From Cinnamomum chago (lineage: Eukaryota > Streptophyta > Magnoliopsida > Laurales > Lauraceae): 64,000 bases of DNA. The DNA is taken from the NCBI GenBank assembly GCA_038049695.1, contig CP142455.1, positions 65,792,501-65,856,500 of the forward strand. Direction: 5' to 3'. The position numbers and the translations under genes are program-made. Of this stretch, positions 2,061-59,519 are shown in pieces. The notes below the pieces were generated by a model, which ran no database searches, had not been told where the DNA came from, and worked only from the letters and a program-made list of their open reading frames with translations. Every line of letters starts with the position of its first letter. Within the stretch, counting starts at the first letter, position 1.

Positions 2061-2116
2061 CTATCACATCTCCAATCCGAGGCACCACATTGTGTTTTAG
2101 AGAAGCTCTCTATAAT

Positions 2117-5098: not shown

Positions 5099-5361
5099 CT
5101 TTGTTTATCTTTATTGTGTATCCTGCCTAATGTAATGTTATTTTATATTTTTAGTGCAAAATTTTGGATCAACATTTCTATTTTCTTCAACATGCATACT
5201 AATAAAAACAAATTGGTAAACAACTTCATCCATTATCAATTTTTAAGTACATCCGAAGATCCTCCGTCATGTAAATAGTTCAATCTACATCAAAGTTTAT
5301 CCAAGAAAAAATAATACATAGTTCAACCGTCAACAAAATACATGACACCCATAAAACCCGA
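5099..5361. other. Spacer between convergent MULE1 genes
   Basis: AT-rich 3' region shared by the tails of both genes. Unlike MULE3, no palindrome array is visible here. Confidence 0.6.
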
Positions 5362-7522: not shown

Positions 7523-7568
7523 CTGAAATATACATCATTTGGATTAGCAATAAATAAGTAAACATACT

Positions 7569-7888
7569 GCACGGATTTCATTAGCAGTGTATATCCGAAA
7601 CTGTGTGGTTTTAACCCGTGCATTCCACATGCACGGATGTGAAACTCCGTGCGAATACAATCTGCACGGATTTGAAGTTTCATGCATATGCACAATGCAC
7701 GGATTTGAATCACCGTGCATATGCACAACGCACAGATTTTACTCTCCGTGCACAATCAATGTGCACGGATCTGCGTTTCCATGCACATTGAATGTGCACG
7801 GATCTGCGTTTCCATGCACATTTGATGTGCACGGATCTGCATTTTCGTGCACATTGATCCGGCACGGATCTACGTTTTCGTGCAGGAC
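7569..7888. repeat. 33-bp palindrome array in MULE1 PMD leader intron
   Basis: GCACGG or variants begin at 7631, 7664, 7697, 7730, 7763, 7796, 7829 and 7862, all exactly 33 bp apart, with two less regular units before them (7569, about 7603). Units again have 10-base spacers and CCGTGC-type right arms. Linkers differ from the left array. The array lies between the PMD leader donor (8098) and acceptor (7524). Confidence 0.95.
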
Positions 7889-8377
7889 GTGAATCATGTT
7901 TTTCATTTTGCATCTCAACCATCACTGATTTCCCTTCTCCCCTCTCCCATCCCTTCCATTCAATCACAATTGCAACTACACACTCCATTCCATTTGCATG
8001 CACTCAATCCATTTGCATTACATGTTTATTTTTTACCCTAAAAAAAGATTAACAATGAAGAAAACAAAAAATGGAAGAAGTTGAAGATGAAGAGGTACTT
8101 GGGGAGATGAAGATGATCTATCTTTGCTCACGAAGAAGAGAAGATGATCCGCCTTCAAACGTTTCACTCACCACAGCTTGGAAATGACGTCGTTCTTCTT
8201 GCAGGGAAGGAAATGAGGAAGAACAGAAGAAGAAGAAGAAGAAGAAGGGCAATGTTGGAATCTTTGGTGGGTGGGCTCAGTAGAAAAAGGGACTTTATGT
8301 TTTTGCAATGGGTGAGCTCAGTATGTGGGGATACTCAGCATTTTGAATGGGTGCAAATAATATTACTCCATGCAAAA

Positions 8378-14318: not shown

Positions 14319-14710
14319 TTCTAGGAAGGGAAATTCTATTTGCACCCACCCATTTTGCTGAGCCAACCCACATTTAAAAAAACATTAATTCCAAGAATAC
14401 CCATCTGTGAATTTCCCTAATTACCCTTGCCTTCATTTTCCTCTTCTCTTCAAGTCATCTGCTTCTTCCTTAGTTGATTTTTTCTTCTGCTTCACTTCAT
14501 CTGCCTCCTCTCTTCAGGATTTCATCTTCACTTCTACTGCACTTATTTCCCTTTAATTGCATTATACTTCTTCTTCTACTTCTTCTCATCATCATAAAGG
14601 TCCCACTTTGGAAAAACTCATCTCCCAATCCATCTCTCTATTTCCTTATTTAAGCTATCACATCTCCAATCCGAGGCACCACATTGTGTTTTAGAGAAGC
14701 TATCTATAAT

Positions 14711-17682
14711 ATGGATCATCAAATGACCATATATGAAGAGAAGGTATCATTTTTTTGACACATGTTTTCAGTTTTTTTTCCATTCACGTCCTGCACGGAT
14801 TTGTAGAGCCGCACATCACATGTAATGATCGACAATATGAAGCCGTGCATAAGTGTATTGCACGGCTTTGTATTTCTGTGCATAAGTGTATTGCACGGCT
14901 TCGAATTTTCGTGCATGAGTGTATTGCACGGCCTAGATTTCCGTGCATAAGTGTATTGCACGGCCTCGGATTTCAATGCATGAGTGTATTACACAGCTCT
15001 GTATTTCCGTGCAATACAACATGGCTCATCTTATGTTGGCCGAACGTTGGGCGTTTTAGCAGCACTGATTTTTTTTTCCAGGATGTTGATTCTACAGGTG
15101 CCAGTGAGTGCTCATTGGATTTTACTAACGTGTTCACCACCGACACTATATTCAGAAGCCGAGATGCCCTTATCCATTGGACACGACATGTCGGAAAAAA
15201 ACATGGCTTAGTAATTATAATCAAAATGTCAGATGTTGGTATAGATGGTAGGAAACCGAGAATTGTATTTTCTTGTGAGATAAGCGGTACTTACAAGGGT
15301 TCTTCGAAGGTCTTTGAGAGGAAATGTCCGAATAAGGTGACTGGAACGAAGAAGTGCAATTGTCCTTTTGCTTTGAAAGGTCGAAAGTTGGCAACTGATG
15401 ACGATTGGATGGTAACAATGATTTGTGGGGTGCACAATCATCCAAATGCACAACATCTTGAGGGGCACTCGTAGGCCGGGAGGCTTTCTGGAGAAGAATT
15501 AACTATTTTGATTGATATGTCGAAGAGTGTAGTGAAGCCGAGGAACATTCTTCACACATTGAAGAAGAGGGATTTGAACAACACCACTCCAATGAAGACT
15601 ATATACAATGCTCGTCACAAGTACATGGTGGCAGAGATGACCGAAAGATCACAGATGCAGCAACTCATGATGAATTTAGAGGAGAACAGATACATTGAAT
15701 GGCACACTAACAACGATGCAACAGACTGTGTTAGTAACTTATTTTGGGCACATCCCTCATCCGTTGAGTTATTACAAGCATTTCTCGAGGTGTTGATAAT
15801 GGATTCCACATATAAGACAAACAAATATCGGCTGCCCTTGCTTGAAATTGTTGGTGTCACGTCTACTCAGTTGACGTTCTTGGTTGCTTTTGTGTACCTT
15901 GAATCAAAGAAGGAGCAGAATTATACCTGAGCTTTTGAGAGGTTGAAGTCATTAATGGATGGATGTATGTTGCCACGTGTGATTGTCACAGACAGAGAGC
16001 TAGCGCTAATGAATGCAATTAAAGTTATTTTTCCGAATGCTACAAACTTCCTATGCAGGTGGCATATTTCAAGGAACATCTTGGCTAATTATAAGAAGTT
16101 TTTTGAAACAAAAGATAGATGGGAGGCATTTATTACTAGTTGGAACATGTTGATAATATCTCCCACCGAAGATGACTACTTGCAACTTCTAAGTGCATGT
16201 AACAGGAATTTCTGCGGGTATCCACAAGCTCTTGATTATGTGAAGAAATCCTGGTTGAGTAAGCATAAGGAACAATTTGTTGCTGCATGGATAGACGTGC
16301 ATATACACTTTGGGAATGTCACTACAAACAGGGTTGAGAGCGCACATGCAAAGTTGGAAAGACATTTAGGGTCATCGAGCTGCAACTTTGATTCAGGTTG
16401 GATTACTATCCATGCCTTTCTTGAATTGCTCTTTACGGAGATAAAAGCTTCTTTTGAGAAGAGTTTGAACACCATGCAACATAAGTTCAGACCGGGCCTG
16501 TTTTGCGAGTTGAGAGGATTTATATCAAAGAATGCTTTGGATATATTGTTAAATGAGTCGATGAGAGCTAATTATATCGGTACAGACTCTGCTGCATGTG
16601 GATGCGTCATTCGAAGGACTCATGGATTACCATGTGCACACGAGATCGCCGAGTATCGACTCTTAGGCTGTCTCATACCCCTGACATGTATACACCACCA
16701 TTGGAGGACGCTTGATTTGACACCCACTGTGGTCGAGGAACCCACTAAACTGACCACCAATGCCGAGTTCGAGTTGATCGCAAAGAGATTTCAGGATAGT
16801 GATCAATTGGGTAAAATATAGATATTGAAAAAACTGAAAGATGTGGCAAATCCTTCATCCACCTATCTTCTTGAGCCAGACGTCAAGTTGAATAACCGGA
16901 GTCGATCCACATCGAAGAAGAAGACGTCGGATACTTCTACTCGTCGAGATCCATCTGCTTTTGAGTATGCACTCCCCATTCAAGAAATTACTACACCAAA
17001 GATAAACAATACGGTGATGACAAAGAAGGAGAAGTTAGGCGTCCGTCAGAGTCAATCGGGATCGTCTACATCTTATTATGACTTGCTTCCTCAGACTCTC
17101 AGACCATTTATCCAGCATATTAAGGATGTTGCAGCTGATGGCAACTGTGGCTTTAGATTTGTAGCCGGTCTTTTGGGAATGGGAGAGGATAATGGGGTTC
17201 AGGTCTGGATGGATTTGAGCAATGAATTGCAAAGATATCAAACATATTATGCCTTGGTATATGGAGGAAAGCACAGGGTTGGTGAGCTATATTACGCATT
17301 ATCATACTTTGATATCAATCCATCGTTTGATCATTGGATGTCAACGCCGGATATGGGTTGTTTGATAGCATCATTTTATAATGTTGTATTGATACACATA
17401 TCTTTGCATCAGTGCCTTACTTTCCTACCTCTAAGAAATAGTCTGATTCCAGTGCCTTCCCGTAAAGTGTTCGCAATTGGGTTTTTCAATGGAAACCATT
17501 TCGTCCAAGTGTTCTTCGCATCCGGATCTCCCATGCCCCCCATTGCTACAAATTGGCACAAATACCATCAACCATTTGCTACAGGATGGGAACTTCCCTA
17601 TGCCATGAACATCGAGCAGATCAAAGATATCATAAGGAACTCTGTTGCTACGTAGGAGACAATTCATATAGATAGCGATTGA
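14711..17682 (+). pseudogene. MULE2 transposase-OTU gene, five stops in one frame
   Basis: Exon 1 is 14711-14743 (eleven residues, donor GTATCA). Exon 2 is 15082-17682 in the same phase as in the other copies. Zinc finger, DDE core (MDSTYKTN, VTDRELALMNA, NRVESAHAK), SWIM finger and OTU domain (DGNCGFRF, GNHFVQVF) can be read through. No frameshift was seen; the frame is cut only by stops at about 15472, 15928, 16819 and 17653. Three of these replace Trp or Gln codons seen in relatives by single C/T or G/A changes; the one at 15472 replaces a Tyr codon. The OTU catalytic Cys and His are both present. A product may be made in pieces only. Confidence 0.9.
14793..15013. repeat. 33-bp palindrome array in MULE2 transposase intron 1
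   Basis: Units start at 14860, 14893, 14926, 14958 and 14991, with 33-bp spacing (one spacer is a base shorter). An irregular first GCACGG lies at 14793. Linkers are ATAAGTGTATT-like, as in MULE1. The array frame is open and in phase with exon 2, so intron retention would add 11-residue repeats to the transposase. Confidence 0.93.
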
Positions 17683-19655
17683 CTTTGTTGATCTTTATTG
17701 TGTATCCTGCCTAATGTAATGTTGTTTTACATTTTTAGTGCAAAATTTTGGATCGCCATTTCTACTTTGATCAACATGCATACTTATAAAAAGAAATTGG
17801 TAAACAACTTCATCCATTATCCAATAAAAGTAAATCTGAAGACCCAATGTCATGTAAATACTTCAATCCACATCAAAGTTCATCCCCAAAAAATAATACA
17901 AGGTTCAACCGTCAACCAACAAAATACATGACACCCATAAAACCCGACTACGGTCCTTGTAGACGACGCCTGTATGTAATCGCCAAGTCTTCTAGACTCT
18001 CGAGTGTAGTCTGTAACGCACAATAATACACATCAGCTGGTTGTCCTATTCGCGCAATCGCGGCACGAAGATGGTTCACAGCTCGGTGGACCTGTATCAG
18101 CCGAACATGACATTAGCAAATGGGTTAGACATGCATATACCATCAATGGGAAATACTCAAATTAAATAATCTCACCGTTGTGGGGGCAGGGTCATCAGCG
18201 CCCTGGTGGGGGTCATAATGTGAATGGCGATATGGGTTCTGGACCCGTACATGAGAGATCTTCTGAAACCACTGAAGATAATCAGGGGCGCAATCCCAGG
18301 CATGCGTCGCACGACTCCTGCGGTGCTTTAGGGATAATATATGGTCACCCCACGTAATCCAGAACTGGTCCAGGAATTGGTAGGAGACCCTATACCTAGC
18401 AGCAGTGGCTCCCCTAGATGCACGAACAGGGGCACACGGTGGAGGTGGGATTGTCTGCACGTGTCCAAACTGATGGAGGACCCTCTATGGATGATAGGGC
18501 TCTATGACATCCATCGATCTTAAGCATCCACAAAAAAATGATATCAAGTGGAAGGGATGATGAGCCCTCACACTAGCATAGGGGTCCCAAGCTACCTGTG
18601 GATAAAAAAGAGAACAATAAATTAATAACAATGACTTCGATATAATAGTAAATATTAGATAGGTATGTTTATTCACCTCACTCGGATGGATGACGTCCAA
18701 CCTCTCACGTATCAACTGTATACTCTCTATCATGTTGCCCGAACTGCTAGAAGGATACCATCGACGTGCTAGTGGCTGGCCTGTAGTATATCCAATCCGT
18801 GCTCGCGGACAAGCGAAGGGGAAGTGCTCATATACCCAGGCCTGTTCACGCATAATATATGGATTAACAAATTTGATGATACCAAATTGTTATATATATA
18901 CGCGTGAGATACCTGCAGCAGCGTGAGATATCCGGCAATCTGTCGAACATCTACCCTCGTTGCCTGTCCCAACTTGCGATAAAGATATGCCAATGCAGCA
19001 GCTCCCCATGCATAATGTCGAATACGTCCAACGTCCATCAATAACTCTAAGTAGAAGATGGACTTGTCGCGGACTTGTAGACAAAGAGTGTGCAACCTAA
19101 CAAATATAATAGGTAGCCTCTGGCAGCGCACTCTTGTTAGGAATTTTGTATTTGCAATTTGATGGATGCATTTGCACTTTAGCATCATTTGATTTACACA
19201 CACTTGCATTGTTTTAGAATTTCTTGAAATCTGGTTTTATACATGCATAGCTTTTAAGATTTGGAAAAGTATTTGGTTTATGCATGTTTTGGTTCTAAAC
19301 TTGGATGCATTGGTTTTAGAATCCAAACTCTTTTGAAAACCTAATTCTTTGTGCATTATATTTGGAAAATCATTTTGAGAATTTAGGTTTGAGCATTGCA
19401 TACATTCATCATTTTCAGAATCAGTTTTGTGTGCATTCTCATTTGAAAAGAGTTTTTAGAAATCAAGCTAGCCTTTGTTTTTAAAGTTTCAAATCATTTT
19501 AGGCTCTTTGTGTTTCATGTTTTTAAACACCATTAGAATCTTTAAAACATGTTTTCCAAGCTTGATTTAGTGGCCAAAAGGTCCCCCAAAGAAATACCTT
19601 CAAAATATGCAAAGTTGGAATTTTTGCAAAAAAGGGGTGCCCTGGCAGTGTCGCC

Positions 19656-19828
19656 GGTCGACCGAGACCTGCTTCCCGGTCGACCGGGAACACTGTCGGG
19701 CGAGTGGGCAGTTTCTGAACTGAAACTTGCCAACGGTCAAAAATATGACCATTATGCCTTCCCGGTCGACCGAGACCTGTGTCTAGGTCGACCGAGGACT
19801 AGCCGTTGGCAACTTTTTGGCTATAAAG
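19656..19828 (+). promoter_or_regulatory. LTR promoter module with GGTCGACC quartet and MYB-like inverted repeat
   Basis: GGTCGACC occurs at 19656, 19678, 19764 and 19786 (spacings 22, 86, 22). Between the two pairs lies AACGGTCA-N6-TGACCATT. Another CCGTTGG is at 19803, and CTATAAAG follows at 19821. The same order recurs in the 3' LTR and in both solo LTRs. AACGG is the core of MYB3R-bound mitosis-specific activator elements, so cell-cycle control is possible but inferred. Confidence 0.6.
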
Positions 19829-20463
19829 TCTATTCATTTCCAACCTTTTTCAAGGCTTGAACTATGAACTTTTGAGACCATTTTGGAGCCAAGGAAAGGG
19901 GAAGAAGTTGGAAAGGCTAGAGGGCTATTTGGAAATCAAACTCATGAGTTTTTAAAAGGTACATCTTTATAGTTATTTTGATTTCCATTCAAATGAAATC
20001 CATGCATGTTCAAATCCTTTGTATCTTCATTTATGCATGATTTCAAGCCTTTAAAGAGTTGATTTGCAAACTCAACATCCTCCTTGGTAAATTAGATTAG
20101 TTTGCAAACTCTCTTATCCTAATCACATGTATTCTTAGACTTTAACATTCATTCAACTTGTTTGTTTCATTTCTTCAAAGTTGTTTGAATCTTTTATGTG
20201 ATTAGTTTTATCTTCAATCATCATTTTATAAGCTTTGATTTTAAAATGCATCATGCATTCATTTAGGAGCTTCATTGTAGAAATTGATTGAAGTTAAGCA
20301 TTCATACACTTGTGCACACACTTTAACTTGTTTTAGTGTATGTTTGTAATTTGAATTAAACTTTCATATTAGCCTATGTAGAGGCAATTCAATTGAGCTT
20401 AAATTGTATCTCTTGGAGTGTTCTTTTGTGAAGACACCTTCTTTGAGAAATCTCTCATTTGTA

Positions 20464-20632
20464 AAGGTTATTGCTTAGCCTAAGAAAAGCATCTTGTAAG
20501 GTTATTGCTTAGCCTAAGAAAAGCATCTTGTAAAGGTTATTGCTTAGCCTATAAAAGCACATTGAGAGGTTGTTGTTTAGCCTAGAAAAACAACATTGTA
20601 AGGGTTATTGCTTAGCCTAGTAAAAAACAGAC
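20464..20632 (+). repeat. Hairpin repeat array in the LTR (5' copy)
   Basis: Five units of about 33-36 bp share the core TTAGCCTA, flanked by short arms that can pair: TGCTT/AAGCA in four units and TGTTGTTT/AAACAACA in one. The 3' LTR copy is at about 26294-26462. Confidence 0.85.
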
Positions 20633-20885
20633 ATAGTGGAAATCCGGTGGGGTGTTGGATTCACAAGTCGGTAGTGGATGTAGGCACGTTGGCCGAACCA
20701 CTATAAATATTGTCTTGTGGTGATTGCTATGTGGTGATTGTTTTTGTTTAGCTTCCGCATTTTAGATGATTAATCATCACATTTGACTAGTTTATGTTAA
20801 GAAGTTAAAATTGGTTTAAATTAGTCATAATTGTAGCTCACCCTATTCACCCCCCCTCTAGGGTTAGGATCCCAAGGACTTTCAA

Positions 20886-20899
20886 TTGGTATCAGAGCC
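20886..20899 (+). other. Primer-binding site
   Basis: TTGGTATCAGAGCC directly after the LTR is complementary to the 3' end of initiator methionine tRNA, the usual primer of plant Copia elements. Confidence 0.9.
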
Positions 20900-21000
20900 T
20901 CGTGCTCTATCTTTTAGGGTCAAGTGTTTGGAACTCTTGATTAGGTGTAAAAACCTAGAGTTAAAAACCCTAGAGTTGTCCTTGCATGAAAATCATTAGA

Positions 21001-22575
21001 ATGGACTCCACTATGTTACATCTTGTAGATTCTTCTAGACCCCTCATTCTTCCTTCTATTGGAGATTCAAACCCTTAATTAAATGAATCTCAAAATTAGT
21101 TAAAAGAAGAAGAAATTGATTATGATGAAGATGATCTTCAACAAGCCTATAATGAATTATATGAAGTATCTTCAAAGCTTGATAAGAGAAATAAAAGTTT
21201 AAAAGAAGAATCTAATAGACTAAACAAAGAGCTAGTCTCTTCAAAAGATGAGCTTAGAGAGAAAGAAGAAGTCATAAATTGTTTAGAATCTAAGTTCATG
21301 ATCTCTTTAAATAACCAATCTAACATTCAAGATGAACTAAGAGAATTAAAGATGGGTTATGATGATGTCAATAAGGAAAATTTAAAACTAAGAGATCAAA
21401 TAAAAAGGCAAGACAAAGACTTTAACAATCTTGAATCTAAATTGACTATCTCTAAGGAAAATTTATCTAATACTCAAGATGAATTAAATGAGATTAAGAT
21501 ACATTGTGATGAGCTTAAAAATGAAAATTTAAACCTAAGAGATACAATTAAAAGACAAGATGAAAACATTAACTATTTAAAATCCAAGTTGACAATTTCA
21601 AATGAAAACTTGTCTAATGCACAAAGTAATGTAAAAACTCTAGAACTTGGATCTAATATAGTTAATGAACTTAAAGCTAAGTTAAAACTTGCCTATGAAG
21701 AGATAAACATTTTTAAGGGAATTGAAAATGAACTAACAAAAGTTAAAAATGAGAATTCAACCCTTAAAAACCAAGTCACTCAACTTGAAACCCATAAACA
21801 AAAGTATGAGTGCAAGTTTACCCAAAGTGAAGATAGACTTAAAAAATTATTTAAATTGGGTAAACCTCATGGAGATAGGACGGGTCTTGGATTTGATAGG
21901 AATGTTTCACATGACCCTAAATTCACCAACACTTTTGTGAAAGGTGAGTCCTCTTTCTCTAGCACTCTTTCTCCTTTGCCCAAAACCAAATGTAATTATT
22001 GTGGCATTGAAGGGCATTTTACGTTTGAGTGCAAACTAAGAAAAAGAAGCCATGTGTCTAAACCCATCTTTGAACTCAAAAATGTAGAATCAAAATCTAT
22101 GAAGGGTAAGACACTAAAAATCAAAGAAGACTCCAAAAAGACTAAACAAGGTAAATCATTTAAAATGGAGTCTCCTAAGATAGATTCTAAAAAGCTTAAA
22201 CAAGTTAAACCAAGCTTGGAAGAATCTAAGAACAAAAAGCTTCTCAACATATCTCCCTTATATCAACCCATGAAAGAACTTTTGAATAAAGTAACAAAGT
22301 TAAATTTAAAATTGAAAAGTCAAGTAAAGGGAGAAAATAAGAAGAAAAGAAAAGTGAATCAATCCCCAAAGAAACAAACTCACCAACATCAAAAGACTAA
22401 TTACCATTATAAGCCAAATTTAGTAAAATCTAAATATCATGGTGATAAATTCAAATTGAAAATTTATCAAGTTAAATCTCATATAGTTGGTGAGAATTCC
22501 AAACTAGACCTCAAAGTTCAACCCTCTCAAGACCTTAGGTGGATTCTAAAAGTTATCTACTTAGTCAAACCTTAA
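21001..22575 (+). pseudogene. Gag-like protein: coiled coil plus CCHC knuckle, two stops
   Basis: The frame opens at ATG 21001 (MDSTMLHLVDSS) and runs to 22575, about 525 codons, with early stops at 21076 (TAA) and 21097 (TAG). From 21298 it is uninterrupted. Residues after the acidic stretch EIDYDEDDLQQAY form long heptad-like repeats rich in Leu, Asn, Lys and Glu. A zinc knuckle CNYCGIEGHFTFEC follows near codon 330, then a Lys-rich basic tail. This resembles the C-terminal half of a Copia gag; the usual N-terminal capsid domain was not recognised. An internal ATG at 21298 could still allow a 425-residue product able to bind RNA. Confidence 0.8.
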
Positions 22576-24950
22576 GGCCTTGAACCTTCTTGACCAACCT
22601 ATTCTTTATAGTTAAATCTCCTTGTTGATCATGTTGCTTTGCATTTTGTTCTTGCTTAGTTACATTTATTAAAATGCATTGTTTCTTTATGATCATTTGA
22701 TTTTGTTTTCATGCACCATTCCAAGTTACATGTCATGGTTTTCAAAATCTTTTGATTATAATTTCATCATGTTTGATTTGCTTTTTGCACACATAAGTTT
22801 TGCATTGCATTTCTACATGATTAATTGATTGTGATTTTAAAAGCTTTCATAGCTAATTTATTCATGATCAATTGTTGTTGCAAAATCATTTGTGTAGATG
22901 TCATAGTAATATTATTTGATCAAATGATTTGAATCAACTTAAGTTTTCCATGGATTTCTAAGTTATACTTTTATATGGAGAACATTGTTTTGAAAAATCA
23001 ACTTGTATGTGTTTCAATTAAGTTATATCTTTTAAAATACAATGTTGAAAATTGATCTTCAAAATCATTCTCTTTATGCTCATTGTTGGATTTTGTTTAT
23101 CAAAATGATTTGAAGATTGGTTGAATGGAAATGCTCTATGACTTCATTAGTCATATTCATCAAAGCATGTTCCATGTTTTCATTTCCTTTTTCTTTTGGT
23201 TTCATTATCTTAGAAATGGAAATGTATGTTGCTTGCATCTTTGCTTATTTAGTTATTCTTTTTGTGATCTTAGTTACATTTGTAGAATCCATACTTGAAC
23301 CCAAATCCATCCTCTATGCCTTATAGTCATATCTTTTTGGATGGTTATGATGTTGACTCATGTAGATTCTCTTGGTATCATCCTTATACATGTTTCAGCT
23401 TCATAAGTAGTGTTCTTAATCATATGAAACTCTTTGAAACTCATTTCTCATATTTCTATATGTTTGATGGATATCTTAGATGTTGAATTCATATGATTTT
23501 GACACTTTGGAAATTGCATGCTTTTACCAAGTCATATCCTTTTGCATTGCAATTTGCCTTGTTCATCACTATGCTCAATAGTTATATCTTTAAAAGTGAT
23601 GAATATGCATTTATGATGCTTGTTGGAATTTTGTGTTTGTCACATCCTTGCTCTTTAACATGTTGTCAAATTCAATTGGTTTCATTTGGTATAATTTAAG
23701 ATTGATTTGATTTCTTGTGTATGTGATAGACCTTGTGTGCATTGGATTGAGCTTGATAGTTATATATTTGTTCCATGTCACATTCCATTAGCATCATAAT
23801 GTTCATGTTGCCACCTCTTTTGCTCTTATAGGTATATCTCATGACCACCATGTTTATGTGTTAATAATATTGGTTGGTTATTAGTTGAGGTTGGCTTCAT
23901 GCTTGAAATTCATTTCACTCATCTTGCACATGATAGTCATATTTTTTGATTGAATGAAATGATTTCAAATCTAACATAGCATATGATTTTCATAGTTAAA
24001 TTATTTAATGCTATGTTTAGTAAACCCCATTTCATCATGGATAGCTCTAATTTGGATTTTTCCTAATAGTCATACTTTTAAATCCATTTTAGAGTGATTG
24101 ATTTAATAGTCATATCCTTAAATCTCAATTGGTATTCTTTGTTTTTCCAATTGATATCCATGATTGCTTTTCCCATTAGACCTTGCTTTCTTTTGGTAAT
24201 TTGATCATATTGAGCTTTATAGTTAAATGAATCTAATCCTTCTCTTGAAGTTGACCCTCAATTGGTTAAACCATCTTCTTCTTGCACCTAATAGTTAAAT
24301 CTTTGTCAAAAGTTTGACAAAAGGAGATAATGGATTGAGGGGGAGTGTAAACCTTCATAGGAAGTATTAGTTTTGATCAAATTGACCCTTGGATTGCCTT
24401 TGAACCCTTAGAGCCTAACTTCCATACATGATAGCCTGTTATGATTATCATTTTCGATTTCATTTGTTAACAGGTGCTACTAAAGGTATTTTCCTTATTT
24501 CATGTGTGTAGGTACCTTTGCAATTTAATGTCAAAGGGGGAGAGAGAGTTCAAGTACTCGAAGATCTCCTACTCTTCAAAGGGGGAGAAAGCATTCAAGT
24601 TCTCTAAAGGTGAAGAGAATGTCCAAGACTTCCTAAGGAGAGTTGTGTATGATCTTCTAAAGGGGAGAGAATGCATACCTTGCCAAAGGGAGAGAGAGGC
24701 ATGGTCAAAGGGGGAGAGCAAATAGAAGAAAGAAAGCTTGGAGCTAAAGAAGATGCTTGGCCATAGAGAGGAAGATGAAAAGAAAGCTTGAAGATTGATC
24801 AAGCACCAAGCATCAAGAAGATTGAAGAAAAGAGCCCAAGAGCCCAAGCTAAGAGGAGGAGCATCCAAGAAGATTTCAAGACTTGTCCAGCTTAGGGGGA
24901 GCTGAAGACTAAGTGTGTAATTTCTATGATGAGTAAGTTTCCATCAAATT
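22576..24950 (+). other. Non-coding interior of the gag-only element
   Basis: AT-rich, with only short hydrophobic frames and no pol motifs. It holds about 17 degenerate copies of ATAGTYAWATCTTT between 22608 and 24310, then several AAAGGGGGAGA purine tracts (24533-24720) that mimic the polypurine tract at 24953. Confidence 0.75.
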
Positions 24951-24952
24951 GC

Positions 24953-24964
24953 AAAGGGGGAGAT
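24953..24964 (+). other. Polypurine tract
   Basis: AAAGGGGGAGAT abuts the 3' LTR start and would prime plus-strand synthesis. Confidence 0.85.
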
Positions 24965-26714
24965 TGTTAGGAATTTTGTATTTGCAATTTAATGGATGCA
25001 TTTGCACTTTAGCATCATTTGATTTACACACACTTGCATTGTTTTAGAATTTCTTGAAATCTGGTTTTATACATGCATAGCTTTTAAGATTTGGAAAAGT
25101 ATTTGGTTTATGCATGTTTTGGTTCTAAACTTGGATGCATTGGTTTTAGAATCCAAACTCTTTTGAAAACCTAATTCTTTGTGCATTATATTTGGAAAAT
25201 CATTTTGAGAATTTAGGTTTGAGCATTGCATACATTCATCATTTTCAGAATCAGTTTTGTGTGCATTCTCATTTGAAAAGAGTTTTTAGAAATCAAGCTA
25301 GCCTTTGTTTTTAAAGTTTCAAATCATTTTAGGCTCTTTGTGTTTCATGTTTTTAAACACCATTAGAATCTTTAAAACATGTTTTCCAAGCTTGATTTAG
25401 TGGCCAAAAGGTCCCCCAAAGAAATACCTTCAAAATATGCAAAGTTGGAATTTTTGCAAAAAGGGGGTGCCCTGGCAGTGTCGCCGGTCGACCGAGACCT
25501 GCTTCCCGGTCGACCGGGAACACTGTCGGGCGAGTGGGCAGTTTCTGAACTGAAACTTGCCAACGGTCAAAAATATGACCATTATGCCTTCCCGGTCGAC
25601 CGAGACCTGTGTCTAGGTCGACCGAGGACTAGCCGTTGGCAACTTTTTGGCTATAAAGTCTATTCATTTCCAACCTTTTTCAAGGCTTGAACTATGAACT
25701 TTTGAGACCATTTTGGAGCCAAGGAAAGGGGAAGAAGTTGGAAAGGCTAGAGGGCTATTTGGAAATCAAACTCATGAGTTTTTAAAAGGTACATCTTTAT
25801 AGTTATTTTGATTTCCATTCAAATGAAATCCATGCATGTTCAAATCCTTTGTATTTTCATTTATGCATGATTTCAAGCCTTTAAAGAGTTGATTTGCAAA
25901 CTCAACATCCTCCTTGGTAAATTAGATTAGTTTGCAAACTCTCTTATCCTAATCACATGTATTCTTAGACTTTAACATTCATACAACTTGTTTGTTTCAT
26001 TTCTTCAAAGTTGTTTGAATCTTTTATGTGATTAGTTTTATCTTCAATCATCATTTTATAAGCTTTGATTTTAAAATGCATCATGCATTCATTTAGGAGC
26101 TTCATTGTAGAAATTGATTGAAGTTAAGCATTCATACACTTGTGCACACACTTTAACTTGTTTTAGTGTATGTTTGTAATTTGAATTAAACTTTCATATT
26201 AGCCTATGTAGAGGCAATTCAATTGAGCTTAAATTGAATCTCTTGGAGTGTTCTTTTGTGAAGACACCTTCTTTGAGAAATCTCTCATTTGTAAAGGTTA
26301 TTGCTTAGCCTAAGAAAAGCATCTTGTAAGGTTATTGCTTAGCCTAAGAAAAGCATCTTGTAAAGGTTATTGCTTAGCCTATAAAAGCACATTGAGAGGT
26401 TGTTGTTTAGCCTAGAAAAACAACATTGTAAGGGTTATTGCTTAGCCTAGTAAAAAACAGACATAGTGGAAATCCGGTGGGGTGTTGGATTCACAAGCCG
26501 GTAGTGGATGTAGGCACGTTGGCCGAACCACTATAAATATTGTCTTGTGGTGATTGCTATGTGGTGATTGTTTTTGTTTAGCTTCCGCATTTTAGATGAT
26601 TAATCATCACATTTGACTAGTTTATGTTAAGAAGTTAAAATTGGTTTAAATTAGTCATAATTGTAGCTCACCCTATTCACCCCCCCTCTAGGGTTAGGAT
26701 CCCAAGAACTTTCA
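24965..26714 (+). repeat. 3' LTR of the gag-only element
   Basis: Same length as the 5' LTR (1750 bp) with about six visible substitutions. The GGTCGACC quartet is at 25486, 25508, 25594 and 25616. Confidence 0.95.
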
Positions 26715-27741
26715 ACTCTATCCGCCGTGCAGATGACAGAGGAGTCACATCACTGCACATCTGTTTGATCCATGACATTCTAACCACCCCACTACAAGCC
26801 AAGGACAACTCTGCGCTAGCAACCCTTCTATCCACCCCCAATCCACGCTCTAACAATGATATCTGATCAGTAAAAGACAGTTGAGTCGATGCGTGGACGG
26901 GTGTACCAACAACTCGAATGCCAATAATAACACCGACATCATCCAATGTGATGGTCATCTCACCAAATGGTAGGCGAAAAGTGTTAGTCTCGAGCTACCA
27001 TCTCTCTACATATGCCGACACCAAAGCCCGGTCGATATGGCGGTAAGATAAGTGCATCGTCAGTGGTGCCAAGCCGAACTCCTCTATAATCGCTTGAAGT
27101 CCAGGAACATGATAATCTTCACCCAGTTGCGGTAGATACCATGATCTCAACTTAGGCCAATGACATATTCACTTAAGAGCATCGCGATCCTGCACAATGT
27201 AAGAAAATATATTAAAATTAGATTCTAACAATTCCAATATGAAAAATGAACCATTAACACATTGTCAGAATAAATGTCATACCTCCCCTCCCCATATCGA
27301 CATAGCTATGTGTGTCCTAAAGCTGATAAGGACAGAGAGATCCTCTGGACCACTTGGAATAGGATTTGCGTGACGATCCTCGTCCACCCACTCCTCTTGA
27401 ATGAGCTGATGTGCATCCTTATCAGTAATATCATCATTTGTAGCCTCCTGAGCGGCTACATCCTCCTCTAACTCCTCTATCGGATCCGAACTAGGATCCT
27501 GTCGCACCTTGCGTCTCCGCTCTGACGCCGTAGGCCTATGACGATCTATCGTGGATAAGCTCGCCACACCACTCCGACCCCACAAGGTCGATGGACTACT
27601 AATAACGTCATCGCGCCCTGAGGTCGAAGAACTACCACGACGAACTCGTCTTGGCGACATGTTGAAATATACATCATTCGGATTAGCAATAAATAAGTAA
27701 ACATACTGCACGGATTTCATTAGCAATGCATATTTGAAACT

Positions 27742-27962
27742 GCATGGTTTTAACCCGTGCATTCCACATGCACGGATGTGAAACTCCATGCGAATGCAAT
27801 CTGCACGGATTTGAAGCTCTGTGCATATGCACAATGCATGGGTTTTAATCTCCGTGCATATGCAATTAGCACAGATTTGAATCACCGTGCAAATGCACAA
27901 CGCACGGATTTTACTCTCCGTGCAAATTCAATGTGAATGTGCACGGATCTGCGTTTCCGTGC
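27742..27962. repeat. 33-bp palindrome array in MULE2 PMD leader intron
   Basis: Units start at 27770, 27803, 27836, 27869 and 27902, exactly 33 bp apart. A unit at 27941 is shifted by a 6-bp duplication (ATGTGA). Arms are GCACGG/CCGTGC variants. The leader donor is at 28173. Confidence 0.94.
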
Positions 27963-28498
27963 AGAACGTGAATCATGTTTTCCATTTTTCATGTCAACCG
28001 TCACTGATTTCCCTTCTCCCCTCTCCCATCCCTTCCATTCATTCCCAATTGCAACCTACACACTCCATTCCATTTGCATGCACTCAACCATTTGCATTAC
28101 ATGTTTATTTAGTTAGAAAAAAGATTAACAATGAAGAAAACCAAAATGGAAGAAGTTGAAGATGAAGAGGTACCTGGGGAGATGAAGATGATGATTCTTT
28201 GCTCATGAAAAAGAGAAGATGATCTGCCTTCAAAGGTTGCTCGGAAATGACGTCGTTTTCAATATTGACGGAAATGGGGAAGAACAGAAGAAAAAGAAGG
28301 AGAAGGAAGAAGAAGAACGGAAGAAAAAAAAAAAAGGAAGAAGAAGGGCAAGTTTGTAAACTTCGGTGGGTGGGCTCAGTAGAAAAGGAGAGTTTATATT
28401 TTTGCAGTGGGTGAGCTCAGCATGTGGGTATACTCAGCAAAATGGGTGGGTGCAAATAGAATTTCCCTTCCAGAAATCCAACACACCCATTTGGTAGT

Positions 28499-51990: not shown

Positions 51991-52520
51991 TGTACGTGCC
52001 TAAATATTTACGGACTTGTTTAGACTAATGTAGAACTTCTTAGGAAAGATAAAATGCCTGAGACTTGAAAGGGAATGAAAAACAAAGGTCAGAGACCCTG
52101 GCTGCAGTCAGCCAAGGGCACTCCGATGCCTAAGTTAGTTCAACAACTAAGCAAATGATGAGTGAGTGAAGAAGGAGAGAGAACTTAGGATGTGTAAGCA
52201 AGTATAGAGCATAAGAGTGAACGTGTGTAAGCAAACCTCTTTTGGATTAGCCCTCTGATATATATATAGAGGCTGAGAGTTGACTTTTGGAGGTGGAGTC
52301 TCATCGGACCTTACCTTAGAGGTAGGTGGCACCAAAGCCCCATCTGGACCTTACCTCGTCCCATCGGGAAGCGTGGCCCCCCCCGTCCCGTTCTGTTAGG
52401 AAGTGTGGCACTCGTCCCCGTTTTGTCAGAGATTACGACTCTTGTCCCGTCCTGTCAGGGATTGCGGATGTGACTACCGGACGAGGATAACTCCTTATCT
52501 CTATTCAGTATTTATCATTA
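51991..52520 (-). repeat. Tat 5' LTR, part 1 (interrupted by MULE3)
   Basis: Matches 28499 to about 29016 with several percent divergence, then stops at MULE3. The last 18 bases of the LTR resume at 59502-59519. About 285 bp in between are missing. Confidence 0.9.
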
Positions 52521-52669
52521 GGGAAATTCTATTCGCACCCACTGGAAGTGATGAATACACCCACAACTTAAATAATTTTTAATTACTAAAATGCCCTCGG
52601 GTGAAAGGACGAAATTGCCCTTACCATCAACATCTGTCTTCCTCCTTTGGTTCACCAGCAGCAGTCTCC

Positions 52670-52935: not shown

Positions 52936-55860
52936 ATGGACAAGCAGTTGACGATCTACGAAAATGAGGTATATACATTTTGACTTCATTTCGTTCGTTT
53001 TTTTTTTGTTTTCTCGCGTCCTGCACGGCATTCTATATACCGTTCAAAATTATTTTACACGGCGTATATATACCCTGCAAAATTATTCTGCACGGCATAT
53101 ATATACCGTGCAAAATTATTCTGAACTGCCTATATATACCGTGTAATATAATTTTGCACTGCCTATATAAACCGTGCAGAATAATTTTGCACCGCCTATG
53201 TAAACCGTGCAAAATTAATAAATGAGTGTGCAGTGCTAATCTAAAAATTTGTGATATATTTGCAGGAGGTTGAATCAACCGGTGCCAGTGAGTGCCTTTT
53301 GGATTTTACAAATGTCTTCACCACTGACATGATATTCAGAAGTCGAGAGGGCCTAATCCAATGGACAAGGGATGTTGGAAAGAAACATGGCTTGGTAATT
53401 GTAATCAAGACTTCGGATGCTGGTGGAGATGGACGGAAGCCGAGGGTCGTTTTTCCTTGTGAGAGAAGTGGTAGTTACAGGAGTCCATCGAAGGTATTCG
53501 AGAAGAGAAATCCTAAGAAGGCAACGGGAACGAAGAAGTGTAGTTGCCCTTTTGCTTTGAAGGGTCGAAAGTTGGCAACTGACGACGATTGGATGTTAAC
53601 AGTGGTTTGTGGGGTGCACAATCATCCAAACGCACAGCATCTAGAGGGGCACTCGTTTGCTGGGAGGCTTTCTGTGGAAGAAATCAACGTTTTGATTGAT
53701 ATGTCTAATAGTTTGGTGAAACCGAGGAACATCCTTCGAACATTGCAGGAAAGGGATGTGCACAACACCACTACAATTAAGAGTATCTACAATGCTCGCC
53801 AGAAGTTTAGGGTGACAGAGATGGCCGGTCGATCACAAATACAGCAACTCATGAGGCATTTGGAAGAGAACAACTACATTGAGTATCACACTAGCAACGA
53901 TGCTACAGATGTTATCATGAACCTATTCTGTGCACATCCATCATCTATTCAGTTATTACGTGCATTTCCAGAAGTTTTGATAATGGATTCCACATACAAG
54001 ACTAATAGATATCGACTTCCCTTGCTTGTGATTGTTGGTGTCACATCTACTCAATTGACGTTCTCCGTTGCTTTTGTGTACCTTGAATCAGAGAGGGAGG
54101 CCAATTATAGATGGGCTTTGGAGAGGCTTAAGGAATTAATGGATGGATGCATCACGACCCGTGTGATTGTCACAGACAAAGAGTTAGCGCTGATGAATGC
54201 AATAAATGTTATTTTTCCGAATGCAGCAAACTTATTATGCAGGTGGCATATTTCTAGGAACATTTTGGCAAATTGTAAGAAGTGTTTTGAGACCAACGAC
54301 AGATGGGTTGCATTTATCTCTTGTTGGAACACGTTGGTAGTCTCTCAAACTGAAAGCGACTACACGCAAATGCTAAGTGCTTTGGAACGGAATTACTGCG
54401 GGTATCCACATGCTGTTGATTATGTGAAGACCTCATGGTTGAATAAGCATAAGGAGCAATTTGTGGCTGCATGGACGGATCGGCATATGCACTTTGGGAA
54501 CGTCACTACTAACAGAGCTGAGAGTGCACATGCAAAATTAAAGAGACACCTAGGCACATCGAGCTGTAGCTTTGATTCGTCTTGGCAGGTTATACATGCC
54601 TTGCTAGAGTTGCTTTTTACAGAAATAAAGGCTTCTTTTGAAAAGAGTTTGAACACCGTGCAACATAAGTTCAAACCGGCACTGTTTCGTGAATTGAGAG
54701 GATTTCTATCAAGGAATGCTTTGGATATAGTGTTAAATGAGTCGTTAAGGGCTAGTGATATTGGTCTAGATTCTACATCATGTGGGTGCGTAATCCGACG
54801 GACTCATGGTTTGCCATGTGCACATGAAATTGCCGAGTACATAAGGGAAGGTTCTCATATACCACTGAGTAGTGACCACCACTATTGACGGAAGCTTAAT
54901 TTAGAAGCCACTATGGTGAACGAAGCCCTTGAGTTGACCACAACTTCAGAGTTCGAGTTGATCACTAAGAGATTTCAAAGTAGTGATCAGAAGGGTAAAA
55001 TACAAATTTTAAGAAAACTTAGAGAACTCGGTTGTCCTTCATCTACTTCTCTTATCGAACCAGACGTAAAATTGAATACCCGCGGTCGGTCATCATCGAA
55101 AAGAAAGAAGTTAGATAGATCTACGCGTCGGGAACCATCTAATTTTGAATACGCACTGTCGATAAAAGATAGCGTTCCAGGTAGATTAAGCAATACAGTT
55201 GCAACAAAGAATAAGGAGAAAATGACTATCCGTCGCACTCGGTCATGTACGTTTCTGCATTTGCTTCCTCAGTCTTTGGGCCCCTATATCCACACTATTA
55301 AGGATGTTGCAGCTGATGGTAACTGTGGATTCAGAGCGATAGCTGGTCTCCTAGGACTGGGCGAGGATAAATGGATGCAGGTTAGAATGGATTTGAGCAA
55401 TGAATTGCAGAGGTATCAAAATTATTATGCACTGGTCTATGGAGGAGAGGACAGGGTTGGGGAGTTGTATTACGCATTGTGTTACTTTGAAAGCAATCCT
55501 TCATTTGATCGATGGATGACAATGCCGGACATGGGTCACTTAATATCTTCATATTATAACATTGTATTGGTCCTTCTTTCACTGCAGCAGTGCCTTACTT
55601 TCCTGCCTTTGAGATCATCCCCGATTCCATCAAGTTCTCACAAAGTGCTCGCGGTTGGTTTCGTCAATGGAAACCATTTTGTTCAGGTCTTCATGAAACC
55701 CGAATCACCCATCCCTCCCATTGCTACAAATTGGCAGAGACACCACCATCCTGAAGCAGACGGATGGCAGATCCCATATGCAAAGAGCATCGAGCAATTC
55801 AGAGAATTGATTGGAAACAGTGTCACAACGCAGGAGTCGGTCAATCTTGACAGCGATTGA
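52936..55860 (+). pseudogene. MULE3 transposase-OTU gene, one stop only
   Basis: Exon 1 (52936-52968) encodes MDKQLTIYENE. Exon 2 runs from 53266 to the stop at 55858-55860, about 875 codons in total. Domains by approximate residue: zinc finger (Cys 76, C-S-C 103-105, CGVHNHP 126-132); DDE transposase with Asp 252 (MDSTYKTN), Asp 315 (VTDKELA) and Glu 430 (NRAESAHAK), with CRWHISRN between; SWIM finger 517-531 (CGCVIRRTHGLPCAH); a basic linker (RGRSSSKRKK); and OTU protease with Cys 698 (DGNCGFRA) and His 815 (GNHFVQV). The only break seen is TGA at 54886, where relatives have Trp, a single G-to-A change. The product could be a transposase ending after the SWIM finger, without the protease. 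The TATA-like TATTTAAA is at 52913. Confidence 0.92.
53023..53240. repeat. 33-bp palindrome array in MULE3 transposase intron 1
   Basis: Units start at 53023, 53057, 53090, 53123, 53156 and 53189 (spacings 34, 33, 33, 33, 33). The form is GCACGG-N10-CCGTGC with spacer CATATATATA and linker AAAATTATTCT, unrelated to MULE1/2 linkers. Donor 52969, acceptor 53265. Confidence 0.95.
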
Positions 55861-56006
55861 TTATGTGTACTCTTCATTTGATGTAAACAAACATATTACC
55901 TATTTTGTATTGGATGGCCAATGAATTCGATCAGGTCTTTATGTGTTTATGTTGTGTATTAATTCATTAATAATATTCCAAAGAAGGTATTACTTCATTA
56001 ACAACT

Positions 56007-56165
56007 GCTCGGTTAAACATGGCTGGGCAAATTTGTTCTGCACGGCGAATATGTTCCGTTGAAATGGATAATGCACGGCATAAAGTTGCCGTGCATAACA
56101 AATTTGCACATTAATAAAGTGCCGTGCACACTCTATATGCTCGGAACATGGTGGCCGTGCAGTGT
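56007..56165. repeat. 33-bp palindrome array between the convergent MULE3 genes
   Basis: Units start at 56007, 56040, 56073, 56106 and 56139, exactly 33 bp apart, for example GCACGG-N10-CCGTTG and GCTCGG-N10-CCGTGC. It lies between the transposase stop (55860) and the PMD stop (56428). MULE1 and MULE2 have none here. Confidence 0.92.
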
Positions 56166-56427
56166 ATTTTAGCAAATATTCGGATAGAAACACAGAACAT
56201 ACATATCCATATAAGGCCCATACAAGTTCAAACATAAAAAAGTGTATCCTCAAAACATCCATTAAAAAAATGGATACATCCAAAAAATCAAGTGATCCAT
56301 CCATACATATCCAAAAAATTCCTTAAATCCCCAAAATGGATAAACCCATCCATACATCCTCTAAAGTATATGCTTTAATTTCCCATCCATACAGACTTAA
56401 CAAAAGAATAAGACAAAAAAAAAACCC

Positions 56428-58757
56428 TCATGCCATCATGGATCTGTACGTCGTCGATACGTCACCGGCAAGCCATCCAGGATCTCGAGGGTGGTTTGGA
56501 GTGCCCGGTAATAGAAATCTGCAGGCTGTTCCGTTTCTTGCAATCGTAGCGCGGAGATGGTCCCTCGCCCGAGTGATCTGTAAGAAACAATTAACTGTGT
56601 CAATACCTAAGATAAGTATAACAAATGGATGCATAATGTTTCGATAAAGTACAAACACTCACCACTCTTGGAGTCGGGTCAGCTACACCCTCATTAGGGT
56701 GATAGTGGGAATGACGTTGGGGGTTCTGTACTCGAGGGTGTGAAATCCTAGAAAATCACTCGAGGTAGTCGGGTGAGCACTCCCATGCATGTTGCGCTCG
56801 ATGGCCGCGGTGCGCTAAGGACAATACATGATCCTCCCAAGTAACCCAGTACTGGTCTAGAAATCTGTAAGAGACCCTGTATTGTCCAGCAGTAGATCCC
56901 CGAGACGCACGAATTGGGGCGAGCGGTTCGGGTGGGATGGTCTGTACATATCCAAACTGTCGGAGAACCCTATGTGGATGGTAGGGTTCAATGACATCTA
57001 GCGCTTTCAAGCAACCACAGAAGAAAGATATCTGATGGAATGGATGATGAGCCCTGACACCAGTATACGGATCCCACTGGACCTGTGGCAAGTAAATGAA
57101 AGAACTCATTATTATAATAAAAATCTGTCCATTGAAAAAAAGTGCAACATTATACCAAGGACCCCATATGGGTGCTCACCTGACTCGGATGTAGGTCATC
57201 CAGCCTCTCACGCAACAGTTTTATGTTCTCCCTCGCAATCCCAGAATCCCGTCCAGCATTCCAGCAGCTCGCTTGAGGCATACCAGCGGTATATCCCCAC
57301 TGCGCAGGAGGACGGGTAAATGGGAAGTGCTCGTACACCCAAGACTACAAAATATACCAATTATTAATTATACAATTTAAAGGATCAATTACGATGGAAC
57401 ATGTATATGTATATGTATTACCGTGAGCAGTGTCAGATATCCAGCAATCTGTCGCACGTCTGCCCTCGTGGCGGTCCCCAATTGGCGATAAAGATATGCA
57501 AGTGCGGCAGCCCCCCATGCATAACGACGGACCCGTGGCAAGTCCATCAGTAAATGTAGGTAGGCAATGGGGACTCGAGTGGCTGACTTATTGGCGAAGA
57601 GTGTGCAGCCTAACAAATACAGAAGATAGCCTCTAGCTGCACACTCTACCTGCTCAACAGACGACGCAGGACTCACCTGGCCGCACACCCGTTTGATCCA
57701 GGCCATCCTCACTACCCCACCATGAGCTACTCTCAACTCAGATGACGCAGATGCCCTATCCACGCCCAGTCCACGCTCAAGTAAATCTACTTGATCAGTA
57801 AATCCCATACTAGTCGATGCGTGGACAGGCAGTCCCGTTACTGGGATACTGAGGAGAGTACCCACATCATCTAAGGTGATCGTCATCTCACCAAATGGCA
57901 TGTGGAATGTATTTGTCTCGGGCTGCCACCTCTCTACAAAGCTGGATACCAGAGGGTTGGAGATATATCGGTAAGAAAAACGCTTCAAATCTGCCAATCC
58001 AGACTCTTCTATAATAGCATAAAACCGAGGAACATGGATATCGGCCCCATCCCCGGGCAAAGGTATGTACCAATCTTCAGCCCTCGCCAATGATTGATAT
58101 ACTTGAGTGCCTCACGTTCCTGCACATTACAAGTATAAATCTTCATTAATATCTGTTATTATAGACTTCAACACAACTTATTTGAAAAACGATTAATTAA
58201 AACATTAAAAAAGGCAATTGTACCTCCCCGTCCCATATGGACAAGGCTACGTGTGTCCTAAAACTCATAAGGACCGATAGGTCGGCCGGACCGCCGGGGA
58301 TAGGACTCTCCCTTGCCGCCGCAGCAGGAGGACTGGATGGTTGTCCCTCCTCGAAATGGGAATCATCCTCCCCTGGTGCCGCTGCAGGGAGACTGGACAG
58401 CTGTGCCTCCTCCTCAGAGGAATCATCCTCTGAAGAACTGTCACCATGCTCTTCTCCTGGTGCCGATGCACGGGGACTGGACGGCTGTGCCTCCTCCTCT
58501 GAGGAATCATCCTCTGAAGAACTGTCAACATGCTCCTCAACCTGTTCCGGGAGTGGATCCTGTTGCAGTTTTCGTCTTCGTTCAGACGCCGTTGGCTGTT
58601 GACGGCCGGCGATCGAAGAACTCGCATGCAAACCTCGGGAACGCGATCTTGAGACACCGATCTTCGTCCGAACTCTCGATGGCTCGCTAGAAGAACTGAC
58701 CTGTCTCCCTGTCATCTGTGAGCTTCCACCAATACGGCGAGCTGGTCTTCTCGGCAT
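56428..58757 (-). pseudogene. MULE3 PMD (MAIN-like) gene, lightly broken
   Basis: Five coding exons with consensus splice sites: 58757-58224 (MPRRPARRIGG to SFRTHVALSIWDGE, with a duplicated acidic SSSEDDSSEEEAQ repeat), 58119-57422 (PMD core: FHMPFGEMTITLDDV, DQVDLLERGLGVDR, GYLLYLLGCTLFANKSAT, RRYAWGAAALAYLYRQLG), 57344-57180 (SWVYEHFPFTRP), 57082-56663 (VQWDPYTGVRAHHPF, SYRFLDQYWVTWEDH) and 56577-56428. A leader intron (59217-58768) with a palindrome array lies upstream. Breaks: one-base loss near 58085, Trp-to-stop near 56756 and a one-base gain near 56535. PMD proteins act in plant nuclei in silencing and genome stability; here the protein may serve the transposon, which is inference. 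Confidence 0.88.
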
Positions 58758-58852
58758 TTCTTCCAATCTGTTAAAAAAGAAAACCAATAAAAGAGGATGA
58801 TATCATATTTTTTTGTACTACTCGGTTTAAATAGACAGTGCAACATTATTCT

Positions 58853-59040
58853 GCATGGCTAAATGGAACCGTGCCAGTTCTGTTTGCACAGCTCAATGTA
58901 ATCGTGCAACCTCTGTTTGCACGGTAATATGAAACCGTGCAAATTATATGTGCACAGCTTATATAGGCCGTGCATATATATTCTGCACGGTTTACAATTG
59001 CCGTGCAGAAAATCCCTGCACGTCTCTGGACTGCCGAGCA
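58853..59040. repeat. 33-bp palindrome array in MULE3 PMD leader intron
   Basis: Units start at 58853, 58886, 58919, 58952, 58985 and 59018, exactly 33 bp apart. Spacers vary fully (TAATATGAAA, TTTACAATTG), while arms stay close to GCACGG and CCGTGC. Confidence 0.95.
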
Positions 59041-59501
59041 GATCGCGAACAGATGTTTTCAAAAATGGAAAACTGGAGTTCGAAACTATTTCTTTTCACA
59101 CCAGATTCTTTCCTATTTGTTGCAAAGGTCTCACAACTATACTCTCTAATGCATAAATTACAACCTAAACAAATTTGTGAAAATGATAAACCTATGAAGA
59201 AGAAGAAGGGCTCTCACCTGTTTCACTGTCCTGATGAAGAAGACGAAGAACAACTCACCAACTGTCTACGAGGGTGTGAGAGCTGTGAAGTGGGACGACT
59301 CCGAATGGCCATAAATTTGAAAAATGCAAACGAGGGAATGTGTTCAGGAAATGAAACAGGGAACGAACGGTGAGCTTGGATGGGCAGTCTGGGAATTATG
59401 GTAGGTGTGTTCAGCAAAATTAAGCCAAAATTAGAATGGGTGTGGTGAGGTCAGCAAGTGGGTGTATTCAGGAGAATAGGTGGGTGCATATAGAATTTCT
59501 C

Positions 59502-59519
59502 TCAAAATATCCCCGCACA
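59502..59519 (-). repeat. Tat 5' LTR, part 2
   Basis: TCAAAATATCCCCGCACA aligns with the last 18 bases of the intact LTR (29301-29318). Confidence 0.85.

Follow-up and report, generated by a model that had tools for sequence, protein, structure and literature searches.

Why would a transposable element maintain arrays of a palindrome whose arms and period persist while the sequence between them does not? The question is raised by a 64,000-nt stretch of the Cinnamomum chago contig CP142455.1 (hereafter the window), in which three Mutator-like elements (MULE1, MULE2, and MULE3) carry seven arrays of a 33-bp unit, GCACGG-N10-CCGTGC plus a linker. The elements combine a MULE transposase domain with terminal inverted repeats (TIRs) and a 9-bp target site duplication (TSD), which places them among the MULEs, and they also encode a plant mobile domain (PMD) protein. 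An initial annotation of the window had suggested selection on arm sequence and spacing, with binding by an element protein or RNA hairpins as possible causes.

The clearest known case of a transposon protein undoing the silencing of its own family through a repeated motif is that of VANDAL elements and their VANC proteins. By analogy, we propose with roughly even confidence that the Cinnamomum arrays would form an element-specific regulatory or anti-silencing platform for a DNA-binding protein made by the element. The VANDAL21-like reading is proposed because a dense, lineage-specific motif lies in predicted introns and between genes and looks dispensable for transposition.

Array geometry, confinement, and turnover

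With up to two mismatches, the motif occurs 41 times in the window, compared to 0.39 expected occurrences and a maximum of 2 in 100 dinucleotide shuffles; the initial annotation had counted about 40 units in seven arrays, and its array positions hold, with edges off by one or two units at most. Tandem Repeats Finder gives a period of 33 for six of the seven arrays and misses the middle array of MULE3, where the motif scan finds five units exactly 33 bp apart. Two end bases of the linker are conserved, which extends the half-site to TGCACGG, so that each 33-bp unit is a dyad of half-sites that alternate in orientation along the array, with six-base cores alternately 10 and 11 bp apart. The number of units differs among arrays. 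A 33-bp step almost without exception, as first described, is found in 15 young copies (146 of 150 successive units with up to three mismatches) but not in the set that includes the window elements and diverged copies (112 of 153), where 26 of the 41 other steps measure 34 or 65–67 bp.

Searches of the 1.06-Gb assembly (14 contigs) return the exact dyad 690 times, versus 8 times for the pattern read backwards. All spacers from N0 to N30 together give 2161 matches, about a third of them from N10 alone and ~49 from the average other spacing; because the backwards control for the same range reaches 1406, spacings other than N10 are mostly background from GC-rich repeats. Confinement was assessed on C1:1–38.17 Mb, for which the ordered set of exact dyads is complete. 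There, the dyads group into 17 loci (L005–L021), all of one MULE lineage: 13 match the MULE3 transposase, OTU-like or PMD proteins, and the remaining four (L014, L015, L016, and L018) carry the MULE3 TIR. This short, tandemly repeated motif of non-coding regions is thus confined to a single transposable element family in that region. In the reverse direction, six loci chosen from the PMD search without regard to the motif all have units 5′ of the PMD gene. The transposase search had 3391 first-look candidates, and the 80 places scored comprise older groups at 75–84% identity and a young one at 94–100%, many members of which retain an open frame of about 850–890 aa; the PMD search yielded 150 scored matching places.

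No loci with units were found in viral contigs. Two units with the spacing of the arrays do occur in each of nine bacterial stretches (L043–L051) from Gemmataceae and Fimbriimonadales, and the three inspected have their own GC-rich palindromic repeats, of a different kind from the MULE arrays. The genome also contains a recurrent 15-mer, CCGTGCTYAGCACGG (e.g., C1:807798–807812), and a GC-rich GCACGGCCC repeat, both of them spaced in ways unrelated to the arrays.

The units evolve unevenly. Spacers of the MULE3 clade, initially noted as sharing nothing obvious with those of MULE1 and MULE2, are indeed at the random level (identity 0.28, 0.29 expected), compared to 0.58 for the arms. When 33 arrays of three clades are compared, identity between clades reaches 0.50 in the arms (0.28 expected from composition), 0.26 in the spacers (0.28 expected), and 0.37 in the linkers (0.31 expected). 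In both comparisons, and in the units used below for covariation, arm identity is inflated by the choice of arrays with at least two units at up to three mismatches. Constraint on the arms and the 33-bp register is thereby supported. Within one array, by contrast, both spacers (0.51 versus 0.30 expected) and linkers (0.49 versus 0.32) are partly common, which shows that tandem duplication has multiplied the units. The suggestion that linkers are not conserved therefore applies between clades and not within arrays.

A stricter comparison used 17 zones placed by protein matches alone (with an estimated PMD start for the zone of L037), each of which contains a unit with up to three mismatches (3400 shuffles: mean 5.1, lowest 2). 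Across clades, arm identity in these zones is 0.31 versus 0.25 expected, and spacer identity 0.285 versus 0.289. The signal is weak because many of the ±33 and ±66 positions lie beyond the array's edge or meet a break in the register; no in-register neighbour is present in four zones (L030 left, L032 left, L031 right, and L041 right).

In young copies (9–16 per array), non-CpG divergence amounts to 0.046 in arms, 0.070 in linkers, 0.073 in spacers, and 0.031 in flanks, with arms below linkers (p 0.045) and below spacers (p 0.015) in per-site tests. The arrays turn over fast, the arms less so. In one of the two old clades 70 of 137 mismatches in the arms are CpG transitions, and in the other 55 of 148, as would be expected if silenced copies are methylated. 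CpG decay was considered as proof of selection and rejected, as divergence at the arm CpG sites of young copies (0.034) is not above that at other arm sites (0.046) and not clearly different from that at flank CpG sites (0.020; p 0.23).

Placement of the arrays and array-free relatives

In MULE3 (Table 1), the left array appears to lie in intron 1 of the transposase gene, as indicated by the acceptor at 53265 and the conserved donor of exon 1. This 33-nt exon upstream of the array (ATGGACAAGCA...GAG, then GT) is conserved in MULE3, L030, L031, L033, and L036, has lost its GT in L035, and is degenerate in MULE1. On the minus strand, an acceptor directly precedes the PMD start in both MULE3 and MULE1 and a donor lies beyond the right array, which would put that array in an intron at the 5′ end of the PMD gene. 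In MULE3 and in all seven clade B loci (L030–L036), a middle array follows the OTU-like region, between the 3′ ends of both genes; unlike MULE3, four scanned loci of clade A (MULE1, MULE2, L012, and L013) are at the shuffle level for such an array, with 18–20 mismatches in 36 positions compared to a median of 19.

Table 1. Features of the three elements, in window coordinates
Element	Feature	Positions	Strand	Remarks
MULE3	Left TIR	52520–52565	+	with CGCACCC and TACACCC
MULE3	Predicted transposase exon 1	52936–52968	+	encodes MDKQLTIYENE, then GT donor; from sequence and cross-clade conservation
MULE3	Predicted transposase intron 1	52969–53265	+	holds left array; donor GAG|GTATAT, acceptor TTTGCAG|GAG
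MULE3	Left array	53023–53217		33-bp palindromic units, half-site TGCACGG
MULE3	Transposase (AFT/FAR1-type finger, MULE domain) and OTU-like region	53266–55860	+	frame interrupted in this copy; ~870 aa open in many relatives
MULE3	Middle array	56007–56160		between convergent genes
MULE3	PMD gene, exons found so far	57389–58757	-	N-terminal extension and plant mobile domain
MULE3	Predicted PMD 5′ intron	58768–59217	-	holds right array; alternative donor slightly further upstream
MULE3	Right array	58820–59039		33-bp palindromic units
MULE3	Right TIR	59458–59502	-	with TGCACCC and ACACCC
MULE1	Whole element	1742–8370	+	perfect 9-bp TSD
MULE1	Left array	2200–2419
MULE1	Right array	7569–7883
MULE2	Whole element	14326–28469	+	carries nested insertion; TSD 7/9
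MULE2	Left array	14793–15012
MULE2	Right array	27708–27962

Among the 12 elements tested, the TSD is perfect in seven (W1, L006, L011, L013, L015, L016, and L018), matches at 8/9 positions in two, and at 7/9 in two; that of MULE3 itself matches at only 5/9, which is the chance level. MULE2 contains, at 19134–25355, direct repeats 5830 bp apart (300-nt piece, 100% identity), as in a recent insertion of the long terminal repeat type that splits the element. Two short elements with perfect TSDs, L015 (4814–5607) and L016 (4797–5225), enclose GC-rich sequence that may derive from captured gene pieces.

Arrays are not a constant companion of the TIRs. Of 17 places with an exact TIR on C1:1–38 Mb, 11 fall in known array loci and three (L052, L053, and L055) hold units or their remains, while L054, L056, and L057 show no array units in the 1 kb viewed. 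L054, which consists of two TIRs and measures 120 bp, belongs to a family of TIR-only miniature inverted-repeat transposable elements (MITEs) of ~120 bp, of which 40 copies were scored out of 292 candidates. In a sample of L054 and 20 of the other 39 scored copies, the half-site is present in none of the 21, and TSDs match at 8/9 or more in 18, being perfect in 11, a level of 8/9 that random flank pairs reach in 0.9% of cases. Unless they were mobilised by another transposase, elements with the TIRs of the MULE3 lineage have thus been able to spread while lacking arrays. Given these array-free copies with TSDs, the arrays look dispensable for transposition, and the idea that they are essential transposition ends becomes unlikely. 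Members of the MITE family are L054, L057, and L058–L077; L033 and L035 (near 660–770), and probably L034, also have a MITE-like copy next to their right array, perhaps as one inherited insertion.

Candidate readers and rival explanations

The DNA-binding domains of FHY3/FAR1, of the yeast Aft proteins, and of the transposase described here are of a related type, that of the WRKY-GCM1 fingers. The N-terminus of the transposase matches the AFT-type finger in sequence and in predicted fold (Aft2, PDB 4lmg), the match spanning residues 20–131 of a model whose parts outside residues 198–468 are barely tested; the FAR1 domain (PF03101) scores 21.7 bits, below its cutoff of 28.1. The sites reported for Aft1/Aft2 are TGCACCC and ACACCC (PMC6250833), and the closely similar GCACCC is present in 35 of 43 TIRs. 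The transposase zinc finger and the PMD protein had both been suggested as binders of the arrays. An element-encoded binder stays the best reading, and with its Aft2-like fold and Aft-like sites in most TIRs the modelled finger is the better-supported candidate of the two. A 347-aa public protein (P0020, ENA) covers 55% of the MULE3 transposase at 91% identity, the next hits being far lower at ~61%, and may indicate a near relative of the plant.

In the C-terminal region of the transposase gene, the open reading frame of the window copy (54913–55860) matches neither a Pfam family (up to E 10) nor a PDB chain (up to E 1), and the OTU-like label comes from a profile of full-length homologs, for which OTUD5 is a match at E 3.3e-4. 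The PMD protein has an N-terminal extension in which repeats of 60 and 84 bp (58306–58535) encode acidic serine-rich stretches, reminiscent of the tandemly repeated peptides that have been reported in VANC proteins.

We infer that the arrays act as cis platforms for a sequence-specific DNA-binding protein encoded by the element and that, from their predicted positions in transposase intron 1, in the PMD 5′ intron and, in some clades, between the genes, they would influence the expression or chromatin of the element's own genes. In a role like that of VANC or TnpA, dense protein loading might keep or restore the activity of copies that would otherwise be methylated. The likeliest reader would be the Aft2-like finger, with the PMD protein as an alternative reader or as an effector or partner; the CACCC sites in the TIRs are probably recognised by the finger as well. 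A more specific version, in which the finger reads two related sites, the CACCC of the TIRs for cutting and the intronic TGCACGG dyads against silencing of its own genes, is one that we put at well below even odds.

Several observations weigh against this proposal. The half-site of the arrays differs from the TIR sites, only 13 of the 43 TIRs hold both TGCACCC and ACACCC, and the common TGCAC is not rare by chance in a TIR of ~46 bp (an estimated ~8%), so that reading of arrays and TIRs by one protein stays unproved. The arm signal in the strict cross-clade test is small and the linkers are raised there as well (0.32 versus 0.28), and the non-CpG divergence of arms in young copies is only ~1.5 times below that of linkers and exceeds that of flanks. 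A related transposase may have mobilised the MITEs, and L015, L016, and L018, short elements with 9/9 TSDs, keep array units, as a function in transposition also predicts.

Such a function is the most serious alternative, although we regard it as rather doubtful: the arrays would be accessory subterminal transposase sites that raise the efficiency of transposition, as is reported of subterminal repeats in CACTA elements. Besides the short elements just named, the distance of ~460–500 bp between the left and right arrays of MULE3 and its ends, the Aft2-type finger of the transposase, and the similar repeats of Muta1 are in line with it. The success of the TIR-only MITEs is not, nor is the internal array of MULE3 and the clade B loci. 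Intronic and intergenic placement together with array-free MITEs makes a regulatory role more likely than end recognition.

It is unlikely that the arrays are ordinary functionless tandem repeats, spread by replication slippage and homogenisation. Variable unit numbers, the common spacers and linkers within arrays, and the faster divergence of arrays than flanks in young copies are what such repeats would show, but arms and 33-bp register outlast spacer similarity between clades despite the CpG transitions in the arms, and the arrays recur at the same gene-linked places.

A host transcription factor, for which the arrays would be promoter or intronic enhancer elements that the lineage has captured, is a slightly poorer prospect still. 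The arrays adjoin the start of both genes and contain a CACG core, which is shared with the FHY3/FAR1 site CACGCGC; indeed, this core is common to several host factor sites. A host site would, however, be expected elsewhere too, and the exact N10 dyad in the C1:1–38 Mb sample lies only within the MULE lineage.

Hairpins of RNA or single-stranded DNA formed by each palindrome were the remaining option of the initial annotation, and complementary arms within predicted introns would allow them. Covariation was examined at six arm pairs in 186 units, under a filter of up to three mismatches that somewhat limits two-sided changes. The A-T pair shows 51 one-sided changes, 1 two-sided change, and no compensatory change, with 3.6 two-sided changes expected under independence; the other five pairs show 2, 0, 5, 9, and 3 versus 0.6, 0.8, 5.0, 12.1, and 4.3 expected. 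Watson-Crick pairing is restored by 12 of the 19 two-sided changes at these five pairs (12 of 20 over all six), largely at CpG positions, and we take these 12 for double CpG transitions. As two-sided changes are not in excess, the half-sites vary about independently, as protein sites do, and hairpins are disfavoured to the point of being very improbable.

Comparison with known systems

Beyond the initial annotation, sequence comparison adds the apparent intronic and intergenic placement, the TGCACGG half-site, and the array-free TIR-only MITEs. The Cinnamomum lineage appears to have built a platform comparable to that of VANC from different proteins. The dyad geometry of this platform is fixed, and the family is young, with an open transposase frame in many copies. 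The lineage allows direct tests of whether MULE transposases already acted as gene regulators before FHY3/FAR1 arose from them, and of how a transposon makes use of the PMD genes it has captured. If the finger reads both sites, a Mutator transposase would be an enzyme and a sequence-specific regulator before any domestication, and thus a ready-made ancestor for transcription factors of the FHY3/FAR1 type; the lineage would also provide a second, independently built VANC-like anti-silencing system, with the PMD protein as partner. Among the titles and abstracts that literature searches for palindromic or tandem arrays in MULEs brought up, none describes this motif, which is no proof of its absence from print.

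In Arabidopsis, the non-coding YAGTATTAY repeats of VANDAL21 elements are bound by VANC21, and the family becomes less methylated (PMC5735166). Both VANDAL21 and the Cinnamomum MULEs have a short motif of their own that is densely repeated in tandem in intronic (for Cinnamomum, predicted), intergenic, and terminal non-coding sequence and rare elsewhere, and in both the repeats gain and lose units fast (PMC5735166, PMC10398659). The Cinnamomum lineage is nevertheless not a VANDAL. YAGTATTAY is reported in one orientation (PMC5735166), whereas the TGCACGG dyads alternate within a fixed 33-bp unit, and the VANC protein is replaced by a PMD protein and by a transposase whose gene includes an OTU-like region; DUF1985, the VANC domain, was not found at E ≤ 0.001 in the exons covered by nine open reading frames of the three elements. 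Loss of methylation is also reported to accompany TnpA of Spm and MURA of MuDR, and TnpA activates methylated Spm (PMC10398659).

The array layout is similar to that of the CACTA elements En/Spm and soybean Tgmt, in which direct and inverted copies of a short motif are bound by a TNPA-type element protein (PMC2613891). The CACTA repeats are, however, subterminal and reported as cis-determinants of transposition (PMC2613891), whereas here TIR-only relatives move and some clades have an internal array; the ends (GGGAAATTCTAT...) and 9-bp TSD are those of MULEs, not CACTA ends with a 3-bp TSD. Muta1, an Aedes MULE, likewise has repeats, with nine copies of a 12-bp subterminal tandem repeat, but the repeats of Muta1 and other Aedes MULEs lie inside long TIRs with 3–4 bp spacers, and the parts of that account drawn on here describe no placement in introns such as is predicted for the Cinnamomum arrays (PMC5225508).

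The CAC core of the array site is shared with the sites of the transcription factors FHY3/FAR1 (CACGCGC; PMC13306707) and of yeast Aft1/Aft2 (PMC6250833). Here, the domain belongs to a transposase, in a young family, and the site in the arrays takes the form of TGCACGG dyads. PMD capture is likewise known from MULEs of grasses and Amborella, in which the PMD is fused with the transposase instead of forming a separate, convergent gene beside arrays, and for which an anti-silencing use has been the subject of speculation by the authors (PMC5418596).
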